This document shows, one piece after another, positions 22,818 to 29,204 of a stretch of 53,318 nucleotides of DNA (its first letter is position 1; each line of letters begins with the position of its first letter). Source of the DNA: Bacillota bacterium (lineage in GTDB: Bacteria; Bacillota; Limnochordia; Darwinibacteriales; DTU012); contig DURM01000078.1 in NCBI GenBank assembly GCA_012837335.1, positions 1-53,318 on the forward strand, written 5' to 3'. The translations under genes were made by a program, and so were the position numbers. The notes beneath the pieces are model-generated. The model saw only the letters and a list, made by a program, of their open reading frames with translations, was not told the origin of the DNA and ran no database searches.

Positions 22818-24107
22818 ATGGGGCGATTAAAAACTTTTGGAGCTTGGGTTTTAGTATTCGGACTGCTGCTGTTCGGCATCAGTCAATATTATTTAAACCA
22901 AACATATCGGATGCAGCTGGAAGCGGGGTATCAGCGGGCATTTCGAGAGTTAGCGATCCATGTTGCTGGTTTAGAGACTGAGCTCAGTAAGCTGTTAGTA
23001 AGCAGCTCGCCTAAACTGCAGCTGGAAAGCGCAGCCAACATCCTCCGCTTAGTTTATGCTTCCCAGGCTAATCTTGGGCAGCTGCCGATCAACAGCTTAA
23101 ATCTTACTCGAACCGAAAACCTTCTGGCCGAAATTCAGGCAGCTGCAGTAAATGCAGCTCAAAGCGGTTTTAAGCTTGAAGATAAATTGACCAATCTGTA
23201 TCAACAGGTTCAATATCTTAATGGTGAGCTCCAAACGCAGCTGGCCCTTGGAGAACGGCGGACCAGCTGGGTAGACTGGCGCCGCTATGTCCAGACATCA
23301 ATCTCCCGAGCCGTTGTTGAACCGGATGAGCGCTATCCCCTGATGCAGGCATTAGTCATGATTGAAGATGGCATGGAGCGGTTTGTCGACTCTAATTTTC
23401 CCAGTGAGTTGGGCCGGCTGCAAGGACCGCTGCCTACAGGTGATCCCATTGCCGAAGCCGAAGCTAAGGCAGCTGCCGAGGCATTTCTCCCGGAAGCAGA
23501 AATAAAGCGGGAAGCAGCTGTAACTAATCAGACAGAAGGGCCGCTGCCTACCTTTACAGTAACCATGACAGCAGCAGACCAAAGTCCGGTAATAATAGAA
23601 GTCTCCAAGCTGGGAGGACATGTTTTATGGATGACTAATCCCCGCATTGTTGAGTCGAATCGGCTCGGTAAAGATGAAATGGTTGAAAAGGCAGAAGCGT
23701 TTCTGAACGAGCGGGGATTTCCCAAGCTGGAACTGATAGAAACAGATTTAAGATTAAATCGCCTGATGTGCAGTTATGCGCTGCTGGAAGACGGAGTAGT
23801 GATTTATCCGCAGCACCTGAAAGTACAGGTTGCCGCGGATAATGGCGAAATTGTTGGTTTCCAGGGTTCAGCCTACCACAGCTTCAAAAACACTAGAGAT
23901 CTGATTCCGAAGCTGACAGCGGCAGAAGCGCAGCAGTTTATTAAGGAATCTGCCGAGATTATAAGCCAGCGCTTGGCGGTAATTCTAGACTCGAATTTTA
24001 ACGAGGTGCTGACTTATGAATTTCGTGTAAACCATGGATCTGATCAATTCTTAATTTACATCAACGCCGCTGATGGCGCAGAAGTAAAAATCACCCGGAT
24101 CGAGTAA
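22818..24107 (+). CDS. ypeB: Germination protein YpeB-like
   Basis: A 429-residue protein starting MGRLKTFGAWVLVFGLLLFG, a membrane anchor. The N-terminal region (to about 190) is helical, followed by PepSY-like repeats with ITRIE-type ends (about 230-429). In Bacillus YpeB stabilises SleB in the spore and is cut during germination. ATG 22818 follows GGTTAGGAGTGGGATA. The 3' end overlaps the convergent dnaE gene by 17 nt. Confidence 0.88.
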   Translation: MGRLKTFGAWVLVFGLLLFGISQYYLNQTYRMQLEAGYQRAFRELAIHVAGLETELSKLLVSSSPKLQLESAANILRLVYASQANLGQLPINSLNLTRTENLLAEIQAAAVNAAQSGFKLEDKLTNLYQQVQYLNGELQTQLALGERRTSWVDWRRYVQTSISRAVVEPDERYPLMQALVMIEDGMERFVDSNFPSELGRLQGPLPTGDPIAEAEAKAAAEAFLPEAEIKREAAVTNQTEGPLPTFTVTMTAADQSPVIIEVSKLGGHVLWMTNPRIVESNRLGKDEMVEKAEAFLNERGFPKLELIETDLRLNRLMCSYALLEDGVVIYPQHLKVQVAADNGEIVGFQGSAYHSFKNTRDLIPKLTAAEAQQFIKESAEIISQRLAVILDSNFNEVLTYEFRVNHGSDQFLIYINAADGAEVKITRIE

Positions 24108-27100
24108 GGGGCATAATTCTTTCGGCCACAAGACTTACTTCCTTGCCTCCACGGCTGGAAACCGTGCCTTCAACAATTAGGAGAGGATGCTGGTACAGGT
24201 TTTCTCCATAGCGCTGATAAACATTTTCAAATACGGTTACATCAAGAAGTCCAAACTCATCTTCAAGGGTAAGAAAGACGACGATTTTACCGCTGCGGGT
24301 TGGCGGCCGGTGCGGCCGGATTACATAGCCAGCTGTTTTGACTTTAGCTCCTTCTGCCTGCTTCTTAACATCGCGGCTGGAGGCAAACTTTCGCTGCGCA
24401 AGCCGTGGTCTAAAGAAGTCCATTACATGTGTCGAAGCAGATAAATTAAGCACTTCAAATTCTAACATCCACCGCTGCCACGGCGTAAAATCCGGCAGCG
24501 CCTGTTCTTGAGCTGATTCTAAAAGAAAGAGACTGCCCTGCCTGTTGCTAAGATAATTGGGCAGCTGCCATAACAGAGAGCGGCGGTTTGGGGTAAAACT
24601 ATCAAAAGCGCCGGCTAGAATCAGGTTTTCGATCACATCTTTACTCACATTTGTGCGGAATACAAAATCCGATAGGGCAATAAAAGGCTGCTTTTGGCGC
24701 TGGGCAAGAATCGAATCAATAAATTTGGCCTCCATGCCTTTGACCTGTTTTAAGCCGATTCGGATGGAATTGTCATCAGCTGTGAAATCAGCCTCGCTTA
24801 GATTGATATCAAGGGGCAGAATGGTAATGCCCCGCTGGCGCGCCTGGACGCACAGGGTGTTCGGCGGATAAAAGCCCAGCGGCTGGTGATTGAGCAGGGC
24901 TGCGTAAAACTGAGCCGGATAGTGTTTGAGCAGATAAGCGGTTTTATAAGCGGTATCGGCAAAAGCTGCCGCGTGGGCTTCGCAGAATCCATAGCCGGCA
25001 TAGCCCAAAATATAAGAGAAGATGATTTCGGCGGTTTCTTTACTGACACCATTAGCAACCGCTTTGCTGATAAAAAGCTCGCCGATTTGGTCCATCTCAT
25101 TTTGAGAGCGGAATTTCGACATGACTCGGCGCAGCCGATCCGATTCTCCCGGAGTGAAGCCGGCGATCTCGGTGGCAATTTCAATTACCTGCTCCTGATA
25201 AAGCACCACACCGTAGGTATCTTTGAGGATCGGTTCCAGCTTGGGATGAATATAAGTGGGCCGTTCTAACCCGTGACGGCGGGCGATGAACGGTTCAACC
25301 ATGTTGCCCTTGATCGGTCCGGGGCGGATGAGAGCTACGCTGGCTACAATATCCTCAATATTGTCAGCTAGAAGCCGCGCCTGGAGATTGCGCTGGGCCG
25401 GACTTTCTAACTGAAAAACGCCGACAGTATCACCGCTGTTCAGCATCTGGTAAGTTGCGGCATCATCTAAAGGAATTTGGTCATAGCTGAAATTATGCTC
25501 TGCTTTCAAAGCTGTGTCCACCTCATGCACAGCCGATAATGTTCGCAGCGAGAGGAGATCAAGTTTAATCAAACCCAGATCTTCAATGGTATTTTTATCG
25601 AACTGAGTAATCAGCACTCCCTTGGCGGAAGGCTGGAGCGGAGTAACCGCATTCAAAGGCGGTCCGCTTACCACCATACCGCCTAAATGGGTTCCCATAT
25701 GGCGGGGAATACCGGTTAACTGCTCACACAGATCGATAAGCTCGCGGTACTGCTCCTGTTTGAGGGGATGATTCTTAAGCTCCGGCAGGGTTTTCAAAAC
25801 CTTGCGGATTCCATCGGCCGGAATGTAGGAAGGAATATTGCGGGTCAGCTGCTTAATTTCCCCTTCGCTCAAGCCGAAAGCTTTGCCCAAATCCCGCAGT
25901 GCAGAGCGGGCATGGTAGGTTGCAAAAGTGCAGACGGAAGCAGTGTGCTCTTCGCCATATTTTTCATAAACATAGGCAGCGATTTGATCTCTTTTGGCCG
26001 CATCAAAATCCACATCGATATCAGGCTTGCGGGCCTGTTCAAGGCTTAAAAATCGCTCAAACAAGAGATTGCGGGCAATCGAATCAACATTTGTAATGCC
26101 TAAACAGTAAGCAACCGCAGAATCTGCGGCAGAACCGCGCCCCGCGTAGCGAATATTATTTCTGCGGGCATAGGCGGTAATATCCCAGACCACCAGAAAA
26201 TAATCATTGACATCCAGCTGGTCGATAATGCTGAGCTCATGATTTAAGCGCTTTTCAATCCTAGGAGTGATTCTGCCATATCTCTTCACCGCTCCCCGGA
26301 AGACCAAGTGCCGCAGCAGCTGTCCGGCGGAACGGAATCCTTTTGGCAGGGGATACCTGGGAAAAAGATTGCGGTCAAGTGTTAAGGAAACTTCGCAGCG
26401 CTCCGCTATTTCTTTGGTGTTGGCAATCGCCTCAGGGTATTGTCTGAACCTCTGCGCCATTTCTGCCGGTGAAGCAAAATAGTTCTCTGCATTTAACGGC
26501 CGCTCAGGATGAATGTCGTTCAGCTGAGTTAAAGTTCGGGCGCAGACCATTAAATCATACAGCCGGAAATCATGTTTAGCAAGGTAATGCACATCATTGG
26601 TGGCAGCGAGAGGAAGCTTAACATGCTCGCTTAGTTCGGCAATTGCTGCCAAAACAGTCTTGGTTTTCGGCAGATAGCTGTTGATCATCTCCAAGTAAAT
26701 GTTTTCTCGGCCGAAAATCCCGATCAGCTTCTTTACATGCTCAAGCGCCGCCTGGTATTTTCCCCTGAGCAGCGCCTGCCACAGGGCTGACCGGCGGCAG
26801 CCGGTGAGCACCAACAGACCCTGATGGCAGGCGGACAGATCTTCCCAGGTGACGATGGGCTGTTTGCGGTCTACTTGGAATCCGGCGGTAAGCAGCCGGC
26901 AGATGTTCTGATAGCCCAAGCTGTTTTGGGCTAACAAGGTGAGGTGATATCCGCCTTCGATCGTGATTTCTACCCCTTGAATCGGCTTAATTCCCAGCGC
27001 AAGAGCTGTTCTATGAAATTCTACCGCGCCGCTGACATTATTGTGATCGGTTAAAGCTACTGCCGGGATGCCGAGTTCGGCGGCCCGTTCCAGATATGCG

Positions 27101-27162
27101 GTGGGCGAAGCAGTGCCGCTTAGAAAAGAATAAAAGGAGTGCACATGTAAGTGGGCAAACAT
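24091..27162 (-). CDS. dnaE: DNA polymerase III alpha subunit, DnaE2-like (translesion)
   Basis: A C-family polymerase of 1023 residues. The PHP domain begins FAHLHVHSFYSFLSGTASP; the palm has GRGSAADSAVAYCLG (about 342-355) and the catalytic Asp triplet in PDIDVDFD (380-387); GYGFCEAHAAAFADTAY and a C-terminal OB fold (about 925-1010) follow. The length is shorter than replicative DnaE1 and fits DnaE2. It follows an ImuB-like gene and a LexA-type promoter, so error-prone repair synthesis is the best reading; a replicative role cannot be excluded. ATG 27162 is six bases from AGGTG; ATG 27168 and GTG 27171 are also in frame. Confidence 0.88.
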   Translation of the reverse strand: MFAHLHVHSFYSFLSGTASPTAYLERAAELGIPAVALTDHNNVSGAVEFHRTALALGIKPIQGVEITIEGGYHLTLLAQNSLGYQNICRLLTAGFQVDRKQPIVTWEDLSACHQGLLVLTGCRRSALWQALLRGKYQAALEHVKKLIGIFGRENIYLEMINSYLPKTKTVLAAIAELSEHVKLPLAATNDVHYLAKHDFRLYDLMVCARTLTQLNDIHPERPLNAENYFASPAEMAQRFRQYPEAIANTKEIAERCEVSLTLDRNLFPRYPLPKGFRSAGQLLRHLVFRGAVKRYGRITPRIEKRLNHELSIIDQLDVNDYFLVVWDITAYARRNNIRYAGRGSAADSAVAYCLGITNVDSIARNLLFERFLSLEQARKPDIDVDFDAAKRDQIAAYVYEKYGEEHTASVCTFATYHARSALRDLGKAFGLSEGEIKQLTRNIPSYIPADGIRKVLKTLPELKNHPLKQEQYRELIDLCEQLTGIPRHMGTHLGGMVVSGPPLNAVTPLQPSAKGVLITQFDKNTIEDLGLIKLDLLSLRTLSAVHEVDTALKAEHNFSYDQIPLDDAATYQMLNSGDTVGVFQLESPAQRNLQARLLADNIEDIVASVALIRPGPIKGNMVEPFIARRHGLERPTYIHPKLEPILKDTYGVVLYQEQVIEIATEIAGFTPGESDRLRRVMSKFRSQNEMDQIGELFISKAVANGVSKETAEIIFSYILGYAGYGFCEAHAAAFADTAYKTAYLLKHYPAQFYAALLNHQPLGFYPPNTLCVQARQRGITILPLDINLSEADFTADDNSIRIGLKQVKGMEAKFIDSILAQRQKQPFIALSDFVFRTNVSKDVIENLILAGAFDSFTPNRRSLLWQLPNYLSNRQGSLFLLESAQEQALPDFTPWQRWMLEFEVLNLSASTHVMDFFRPRLAQRKFASSRDVKKQAEGAKVKTAGYVIRPHRPPTRSGKIVVFLTLEDEFGLLDVTVFENVYQRYGENLYQHPLLIVEGTVSSRGGKEVSLVAERIMPLTRSG

Positions 27163-27180
27163 TTCCATCACCTAACTGCA

Positions 27181-27420
27181 TCAATCATAAATTTTATAAA
27201 GCACCCAGCGGGATTGATCAGGATAATGGTGCAGCTCGAATAAAACCGCCTCTGAAATAACCCGGTAAACATGCAGCTCCGGTTCCTCCAGCCACCACTG
27301 CCCGGATTCCCGCCAGTATTCTGCGATTAGGTCTATTTTGTACGGGCGCTGGTAGATAAAGGCTTGGGGTTTATTCGCGGCGGTTTCAACGGTGATCTCG
27401 CTGTTGATGATCTTAGAGAT
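27181..27420 (-). CDS. Small DUF6504-like protein with no canonical start codon
   Basis: The 240-nt gap between the ImuB-like gene and dnaE is fully open on the minus strand from a TAG at 27439-27441 to TGA 27181-27183, yet contains no usable ATG, GTG or TTG. The translation has IYQRPYKIDLIAEYWRESGQ, then WWLEEPELHVYRV, LFELHHYP and a final WVLYKIYD. This pattern (WRE.G.WW, then FEL, then W.L..IYD) recalls DUF6504 proteins, which sit between imuB and dnaE2 in Actinobacteria. ATC 27420 lies seven bases after GGGAG and is my best start (79 residues); ATC 27411 or a frameshift from imuB are alternatives. Confidence 0.6.
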   Translation of the reverse strand: MSKIINSEITVETAANKPQAFIYQRPYKIDLIAEYWRESGQWWLEEPELHVYRVISEAVLFELHHYPDQSRWVLYKIYD

Positions 27421-28351
27421 AGGACTGCTCCCACATGGCTAAGATTTTTTCGCGGCGGGATGGTTTTAGCTGCACCAAAACACTGCTGAGCTGGGATTTT
27501 AAAGAAACAATTTTTCGACTAGTAGGATTTTCCCCAAAGATGTCTAATTGTTTATGTAGATGAGGAGCAAGATCCAACCCGGATATTTGTATTTGATCAA
27601 TCGGTTCATTGGGAATGGCTACCAGTAAAGAGCGATAAAATACATCCTGCTCTGCAGTGGGTGGATCAAAGCGGCGGATTGCAGTAAAATTTGTTCCGTT
27701 CTGCCGCCAGTCCAGGCGGATTTTAGCCGCAAGCAGCCGCCGGGAACGAAGCTGCTCAGCCACTGCGGTTAAACCCTGCCGCAGAAACAGCTCCAGCTGT
27801 GGTTGGCCCACTGGAGAAGCGATTTCTGGATCGGTCAAGAAATCGAACTCCCAATGAATTTTGATTGGTTTATCCGGAGTAAAGGGTTTGGGATCCTGAC
27901 CGCGGGCAATTTTGGCAAGCATTTCTGCATCACTGCCAAACTGGAGTCTTAAAGATTTTAAAGGCACTTGGGCCAGGGCTCCGAATGTATCGATCCCCAG
28001 CTTATTAAGCTGGGAAGTCTGCGGTAGATCCAGTAAATTAAGGGATAAGCCAGCAAGAAATGCGCTGCTTTCTGATCCCGGGATATAGGTATTTGCGCGG
28101 GTCAAGGCGGCTAGTTTAGCAATTATCTTACTGGCACCGGCACCCCAGATACCCGCAAGATAATTCTGCTTCAGCCGTGTTAGAAATTGAGCACCAAATT
28201 CAGCCGGCGCAAAGTGTTCTGGAAGACGGCAGTACCAAGTACAGGGCGTTTCAATTTCAATCTGTTCGGTCCAGCTGCGGCAGAACTGCAGCAGGTGTTC
28301 TCGCTGATCGGCTTCAATTGCTGCCCTGTTAATCTGACAGTAGACGATCAT
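27413..28351 (-). CDS. ImuB-like degenerate Y-family polymerase protein
   Basis: A 312-residue protein from ATG 28351. Residues 60-160 match the Y-family fingers/thumb: AGIWGAGASKIIAKLA, a helix-hairpin-helix-like NKLGIDTFGALAQVP and FGSDAEMLAKIARGQDP. The N-terminal catalytic palm, with its Asp and DE residues, is missing or shortened, so it is unlikely to be an active polymerase. QLDIFG at 268-273 looks like a beta-clamp-binding motif. ImuB is the inactive adaptor of the ImuA-ImuB-DnaE2 mutasome; no ImuA is seen nearby. It overlaps the small downstream ORF. Confidence 0.8.
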   Translation of the reverse strand: MIVYCQINRAAIEADQREHLLQFCRSWTEQIEIETPCTWYCRLPEHFAPAEFGAQFLTRLKQNYLAGIWGAGASKIIAKLAALTRANTYIPGSESSAFLAGLSLNLLDLPQTSQLNKLGIDTFGALAQVPLKSLRLQFGSDAEMLAKIARGQDPKPFTPDKPIKIHWEFDFLTDPEIASPVGQPQLELFLRQGLTAVAEQLRSRRLLAAKIRLDWRQNGTNFTAIRRFDPPTAEQDVFYRSLLVAIPNEPIDQIQISGLDLAPHLHKQLDIFGENPTSRKIVSLKSQLSSVLVQLKPSRREKILAMWEQSYL

Positions 28352-28367
28352 TTTCACCAACCCCTTA

Positions 28368-28418
28368 CGAACATATGATCGCAAATCAATTGTAATACAG
28401 AACACTTGTTCGCGTCAA
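28368..28418 (-). promoter_or_regulatory. LexA-controlled promoter of the translesion cassette
   Basis: On the minus strand TTGACG (28418-28413) and TACAAT (28394-28389) are 18 nt apart. A perfect LexA/DinR palindrome, GAAC-ACTT-GTTC (28400-28411 on plus), fills the spacer. A second near-match, CGAACATATGATCG (28368-28381, one mismatch to CGAAC-N4-GTTCG), lies just downstream. Repressor bound here would block polymerase, so SOS induction is expected. The region also lies upstream of the divergent PhnP-like gene. Confidence 0.85.
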
Positions 28419-28445: not shown

Positions 28446-29204
28446 GTGAAAATAACGTTTTTGGGAACCGGAACATCCCATGGTGTGCCGGTAATTGGAT
28501 GTAATTGTGATGTCTGTCAAAGTAAGGATCCGCGCAATCAGCGCACTCGTTCGTCAATTTTAATCGAAACTAAGGGTTTGTCCTTATTAGTCGATACTGC
28601 TACCGAATTTCGTCTGCAGGCGCTGCGGGCAGGCATCAGCACAGTTGATGCTGTGCTGTACACCCACTGCCACGCAGATCATGTCTTTGGTTTTGATGAT
28701 TTAAGGATTTTCAGCCAGCGCTCAGGTAAAGCGGTGCCTTTTTACGGTAATAGGGAAACCATCGAGGAAATGCTGCAGGTGTTCAGCTATGTTTTCCGCA
28801 AAACTCAAATCGGGGGTGGAAAACCGCAGGTGGAGCCAAACGTGGTTGATGGTCCCTTTCAGATTAAGGATTTGACGGTGATTCCAATCCCGATTTTCCA
28901 CGGTAATCTGCCAATTTACGGCTATCGGATTGGCGATATGGCTTATATTACCGACTGCAGTAAAATTCCGGAGCCATCGCTTGAGCTGCTATCGGGCTTA
29001 AAAGTCCTGATTTTAGGAGTAGTGCGCTACGAGCCTCATTCAACGCACATGCATGTTGACGGAGCTTTGGAGCTGATCAGCAAGCTCAAGCCGGATCAGG
29101 CTTATTTTACTCATCTTTCCCATTTGCTGGAGCACGGCGCAGTGAACTCAGAACTGCCGCCGGGGGTATCGCTTGCATATGATGGATTGATAATTGGGAT
29201 CTAA
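28446..29204 (+). CDS. MBL-fold metallohydrolase, PhnP-like
   Basis: A 252-residue metallo-beta-lactamase-fold protein. It starts MKITFLGTGTSHGVPVIGC, followed by C.VC.S.DPRN.R.RSS, a pattern of PhnP-type cyclic phosphodiesterases; the zinc motif THCHADH is near residue 75 and further ligands lie in PIFHGN and FTHLSHLLEH. Substrate unknown. The GTG at 28446 follows CCAGGAGGATAGAA. It is divergent from the LexA-controlled cassette with about 95 nt between start codons. Confidence 0.85.
   Translation: MKITFLGTGTSHGVPVIGCNCDVCQSKDPRNQRTRSSILIETKGLSLLVDTATEFRLQALRAGISTVDAVLYTHCHADHVFGFDDLRIFSQRSGKAVPFYGNRETIEEMLQVFSYVFRKTQIGGGKPQVEPNVVDGPFQIKDLTVIPIPIFHGNLPIYGYRIGDMAYITDCSKIPEPSLELLSGLKVLILGVVRYEPHSTHMHVDGALELISKLKPDQAYFTHLSHLLEHGAVNSELPPGVSLAYDGLIIGI

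Follow-up and report, generated by a model that had tools for sequence, protein, structure and literature searches.

The window (the whole stretch of DNA that we analysed, 53,318 nucleotides) carries three genes of a mutasome operon on its minus strand, a promoter with two LexA operators in front of them, and a divergent gene on the plus strand. The features are as follows:

24091-27171, minus strand: dnaE2 (imuC), error-prone C-family polymerase, 1026 amino acids
27181-27420, minus strand: standalone ImuB-C (DUF6504) open reading frame, missed by the ORF finder, with a probable ATC start at 27418-27420
27413-28351, minus strand: imuB-like gene, 312 amino acids (identified by profile, structural model, and alignment)
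28361-28366, minus strand: AAGGGG, probable ribosome-binding sequence upstream of the imuB-like ATG, proposed from the sequence
28368-28381, minus strand: LexA operator 2, CGATCATATGTTCG (a second box is present in 28 of 31 relatives)
28389-28394, minus strand: -10 element, TACAAT
28399-28412, minus strand: LexA operator 1, CGAACAAGTGTTCT, within the 18-bp spacer (exact core match)
28413-28418, minus strand: -35 element, TTGACG
28446-29204, plus strand: divergent MBL-fold metallo-hydrolase, whose orthologues without the cassette have no LexA boxes

Read along the minus strand, the upstream region runs TTGACG-CGAACAAGTGTTCTGTAT-TACAAT, then TGATTTG, CGATCATATGTTCG, a purine-rich ribosome-binding sequence, and the ATG of the imuB-like gene at 28351. 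The promoter (TTGACG, 18 bp, TACAAT) spans 28389-28418 on the minus strand, and the entire core of operator 1, GAACAAGTGTTC (28400-28411), lies inside its spacer. This core is a perfect Bacillus-type LexA core. The box matches the Bacillus/Staphylococcus SOS box CGAACN4GTTCG (PMC9578287), with a perfect core and a different final flanking base, and it overlaps the promoter. Operator 2 starts 31 bp downstream of operator 1 and 8 bp past the -10 element, which probably places it over or just after +1. Its core (GATCATATGTTC, 28369-28380) has one mismatch, in the left arm. The preliminary description of this DNA had located the arrangement exactly (28368-28418), with the palindrome quoted as it reads on the plus strand (GAACACTTGTTC, 28400-28411); the promoter itself is on the minus strand. 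The second site that it called near-perfect is CGATCATATGTTCG, with its one core mismatch.

The 312-amino-acid product of the imuB-like gene had no match in Pfam at E < 0.001. A profile of its family, compared to the PDB, matched Rev1 (E = 1e-17) and Pol IV (E of about 1e-15), and the best Foldseek matches to its AlphaFold model (pLDDT 87.5) were Y-family polymerases throughout. The global TM-scores were low, at about 0.4, which probably reflects a different arrangement of the domains. In the alignment, most relatives have PHAWY in place of the catalytic Asp-Glu motif (SIDEAY-type), and the window has PCTWY. Also, about 60 N-terminal residues that most relatives have, including the region of the N-terminal motif, are missing from the protein in the window's genus and in one neighbouring genus. 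The protein does contain a beta-clamp-like motif, QLDIF. As judged by the alignment and the model, it appears to be a catalytically dead, N-terminally reduced homologue of the Y-family polymerases.

The 1026-amino-acid DnaE stops at the OB domain and is without the C-terminal domain. It groups with DnaE2 from Thermomicrobium and ImuC from Rhizobium, with long branches, and separately from the two other PolIII-alpha homologues in the genome. ImuA was not found: searching with NF033429 gave only RecA and weak or spurious matches, none above the cut-off, and the sensitivity of this search is uncertain because the control genomes did not pass the cut-off either. The “translesion cassette” of the preliminary description was rightly named but incompletely described, as the operon is an ImuA-less mutasome comprised of an inactive PolY, ImuB-C, and DnaE2.

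To follow the promoter across relatives, we searched for the imuB-like protein in 100 related genomes. Some match was present in 70 of them, and strong orthologues were restricted to the order. Among GTDB genomes, the relatives that carry names are uncultured Bacillota, with Limnochordia as the label for several of them. There were 31 usable orthologous promoters, from five families (f1-f5). In 30 of the 31, the TTGAC...TAnnnT spacer contains a LexA core that has no more than one mismatch, and TTGAC is kept ahead of the embedded box in 30 of the 31. A second core is found downstream in 28 of the 31 promoters (L021, whose second box has two mismatches, was left out of this count). The spacing from the first core is 28-31 bp (36 bp in one promoter), and the second core usually lies 6-8 bp after the -10 element. 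In one promoter of family f2 (L023), the embedded site is absent and a single box lies elsewhere, and one of family f4 (L025) has operator 1 only, embedded as usual. Operator 2 has a perfect core in all of the f3 promoters that we examined, and the one-base variant GATCATATGTTC is common to six f1 promoters (the window and L016-L020). The conserved parts are the half-sites, whereas identity is about 53-55% over the central 4 bp and about 31% over the linker; these percentages are partly circular, as the regular expression used in the search fixes part of operator 1, and the count across 31 promoters is less conditioned. The N-terminal shortening of the Y-family protein is seen in L016-L019 and largely in L025 as well. 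By eye, the L025 protein may carry a RecA-NT-like motif, as in the Kyrpidia-type variant.

The ImuB-C frame has a weak match to DUF6504 in the window (E = 0.002) and a stronger one in G008 (E = 1e-7), and its relatives are clear at the same position, between the imuB-like gene and dnaE2. No ATG, GTG, or TTG is present at the homologous start in any of the nine f1 and f2 genomes (L015-L023). The position that is homologous to the MSK start of the other families reads ATC TCT AAR in eight of the nine, with a close variant (ISR) in L018. In the f1 and f2 genomes, GGGAG lies about 7 nt upstream of this ATC, and the ATC overlaps the end of imuB (TAT/CAT CTC TAA). Because CTC makes up only about 13% of the leucine codons in the window, and codons ending in T about 65% of those for tyrosine and histidine, finding the pattern in nine of nine genomes points to constraint, with the caveat that these species are relatives of one another. 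In some of the f1 and f2 genomes, a GTG or ATG does occur deeper in the frame; a start there would yield a shortened protein. Initiation at ATC appears to fit the ribosome-binding spacing best, and the alternative is +1 frameshifting to a fusion. We would put it at an even chance that, in this family, ImuB-C is made from an ATC start conserved over nine species or by a +1 frameshift at the imuB stop, with expression driven by a promoter that has a LexA dimer on either side of its -10 element. If the frameshift is real, then the product would be a fused ImuB::ImuB-C, resembling the classical ImuB.

The genome encodes one LexA (TIGR00498, 254 bits versus a cut-off of 111). When aligned to solved LexA structures, it has the Ala-Gly cleavage site and the Ser and Lys catalytic residues, and it is predicted to be an intact repressor of the self-cleaving type. 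The lexA gene and a yneA-like LysM gene (59.2 bits versus a cut-off of 60) are divergently oriented, with several LexA boxes between them. One of these, with one mismatch, lies in the spacer of the yneA promoter (TTGACA-AAACATACGTTCTGGTT-TATACT). The same divergence, with three LexA-like boxes of which one is in the yneA spacer, is conserved across the order (L004/L008 and relatives). In the window genome, the recA match is preceded, at a distance of about 64 bp, by a degenerate box, CGAACAAAGGTTTT; most relatives also have a degenerate recA box with a GTTT right arm, about 50-75 bp upstream. Another LexA box (CGAACGTAAGTTC) lies about 95 bp upstream of the ORF start of a UmuC/UvrX-type Y-family polymerase gene (L001 / G000:C13:8658). 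The preliminary description had tied its proposal to a LexA in the genome and to the motif at the recA and lexA promoters: LexA is present, and the motif is strong at lexA/yneA and degenerate at recA.

With an operator in the spacer across the order, a LexA in the genome, and boxes at lexA/yneA and recA, the sequence evidence supports the earlier proposal that the cassette is under SOS control, and we consider it very likely that a LexA-repressed SOS promoter drives this ImuA-less DnaE2 mutasome operon. During normal growth, one LexA dimer would occupy the spacer between -35 and -10 and another would bind just downstream of -10, and RNA polymerase would be excluded from a -10 element that is flanked by repressor. 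If the DNA is damaged, filaments of RecA (which the genome also encodes) would lead LexA to cleave itself, and both sites would empty. The imuB-like gene, imuB-C, and dnaE2 would then be transcribed together, as a single three-gene transcript. By analogy with mutasomes that have been described, the inactive Y-family protein would anchor DnaE2 at the sliding clamp for error-prone bypass of lesions, and RecA possibly substitutes for ImuA.

Alternatively, operator 1 alone might matter, with operator 2 being accessory or weak. We regard this as a possible but rather doubtful reading. In the window genome and other f1 promoters, operator 2 has the variant form GATC...GTTC, it is missing from f4, and in the P1 promoter of phage GIL01 the second site has a minor role (PMC4551915). 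Against this, every f3 promoter that we examined has a perfect operator 2 core, and the sequence around operator 2 is less conserved than its half-sites. In the window genome and its close relatives, operator 2 may indeed be weak, given its one core mismatch. Repression by LexA at both sites remains our preferred reading, but we do not claim cooperativity or a joint “clamp,” because the two adjacent LexA sites of GIL01 P1 are bound non-cooperatively (PMC4551915).

The boxes could instead serve the divergent MBL-fold hydrolase, or both of the divergent genes, rather than imuB alone. The start of the MBL gene is only about 95 bp from the start of imuB, with the boxes in between; in a relative, too, the MBL gene sits next to the cassette and is divergent from it; and a reverse promoter is conceivable, as the -10 region is near-symmetric. 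But no LexA box is present upstream of the MBL orthologues that lack an imuB neighbour (three of three genomes of the class), the -35 and -10 elements that flank operator 1 are oriented towards imuB, and we did not recognise a good MBL promoter by eye. We think that this explanation is unlikely. G001, from the same genus, has neither the cassette nor the MBL gene (either the whole region was lost or the assembly has a gap there), so this genome does not separate the two readings.

Taken by itself, the palindrome is unremarkable. Across the whole 2.41-Mb genome (98% complete, 91 contigs), exact GAACN4GTTC occurs 27 times, as compared to 35 times for the reversed control pattern, so the bare LexA core is not enriched genome-wide, and the copies that we checked are mostly intragenic. 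About 0.6 copies are expected per 53-kb window, and one copy somewhere would be no surprise. A single palindrome is weak evidence because the core is no commoner than the control and because the checked copies are mostly intragenic. Its location is another matter: extrapolating from the density in the genome, a core that is wholly within one 18-bp promoter spacer would be expected about 1 in 10,000 times. Across 36 genomes, the composite pattern of promoter plus operator had 146 matches versus 52 for the control. The case is carried by the position of the palindrome in the promoter and by its conservation, not by the palindrome alone, so the “strong sequence evidence” claimed in the preliminary description overstates what the single palindrome can tell but is a fair description of the comparative footprint. 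Despite the lack of enrichment, and despite similar palindromes elsewhere (for example, beside an ArsR-like gene), it is extremely improbable that this is a chance palindrome or the site of some other palindrome-binding regulator with no SOS role, as position and spacing are the same in 30 of 31 orthologous promoters, the same class of box is found at lexA/yneA and recA, and the genome encodes an intact LexA.

The explanation is well supported and largely ordinary, and the arrangement of LexA sites is close to what other bacteria already show. The closest known system is in Kyrpidia tusciae, which has a putative operon of inactive PolY, ImuB-C, and DnaE2 (Timinskas and Venclovas 2019, PMC6511836). 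The two share these three modules, a Gram-positive lineage, and the fact that ImuA was not found, and standalone ImuB-C has been described before (PMC3765255). Unlike Kyrpidia, the lineage of the window is uncultured and Limnochordia-like, its Y-family part is down to 312-316 amino acids (in two neighbouring genera, one of which is that of the window), its ImuB-C is without a standard start codon, and it has a tandem LexA promoter across the order. The imuA-imuB-dnaE2 cassette of Caulobacter, Pseudomonas, and Mycobacterium also combines LexA-type control with a dead Y-family protein and DnaE2, but in the window ImuB-C is a separate open reading frame, no ImuA gene was found, and the box is of the Bacillus type, not the proteobacterial one. 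GIL01 P1, with dinBox1 and dinBox1b, likewise has two neighbouring LexA sites at one promoter; there, both sites come after the start site, the second one being a half-site, whereas the sites in the window flank the -10 element (PMC4551915). Two papers name both Limnochordia and the SOS response, and judging from their titles and abstracts both deal with other subjects.

What the comparison adds is evidence, from across the order, that a DnaE2 mutasome without ImuA is under SOS control in these uncultured, Limnochordia-like Bacillota. It also offers a minimal mutasome, with a Y-family part that is reduced further than in most relatives, and a set of naturally varying promoters in which to ask what a pair of LexA sites around a -10 element does beyond a single one. 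The Bacillus/Staphylococcus system has the same box (CGAACN4GTTCG) and a similar lexA-yneA locus, with a divergent yneA-like gene and several boxes. In the order of the window, the box is found within the promoter spacers of both imuB and yneA and, in some families, of a helicase. The helicase promoters are from families f3 and f5 (L132, L136, L137, L143, and L120), with a LexA box of the TTGACANGCAAACNNNTGTTCGTYTATGAT type inside the spacer, and the helicase itself looks, by eye, to be MrfA/YprA-like.
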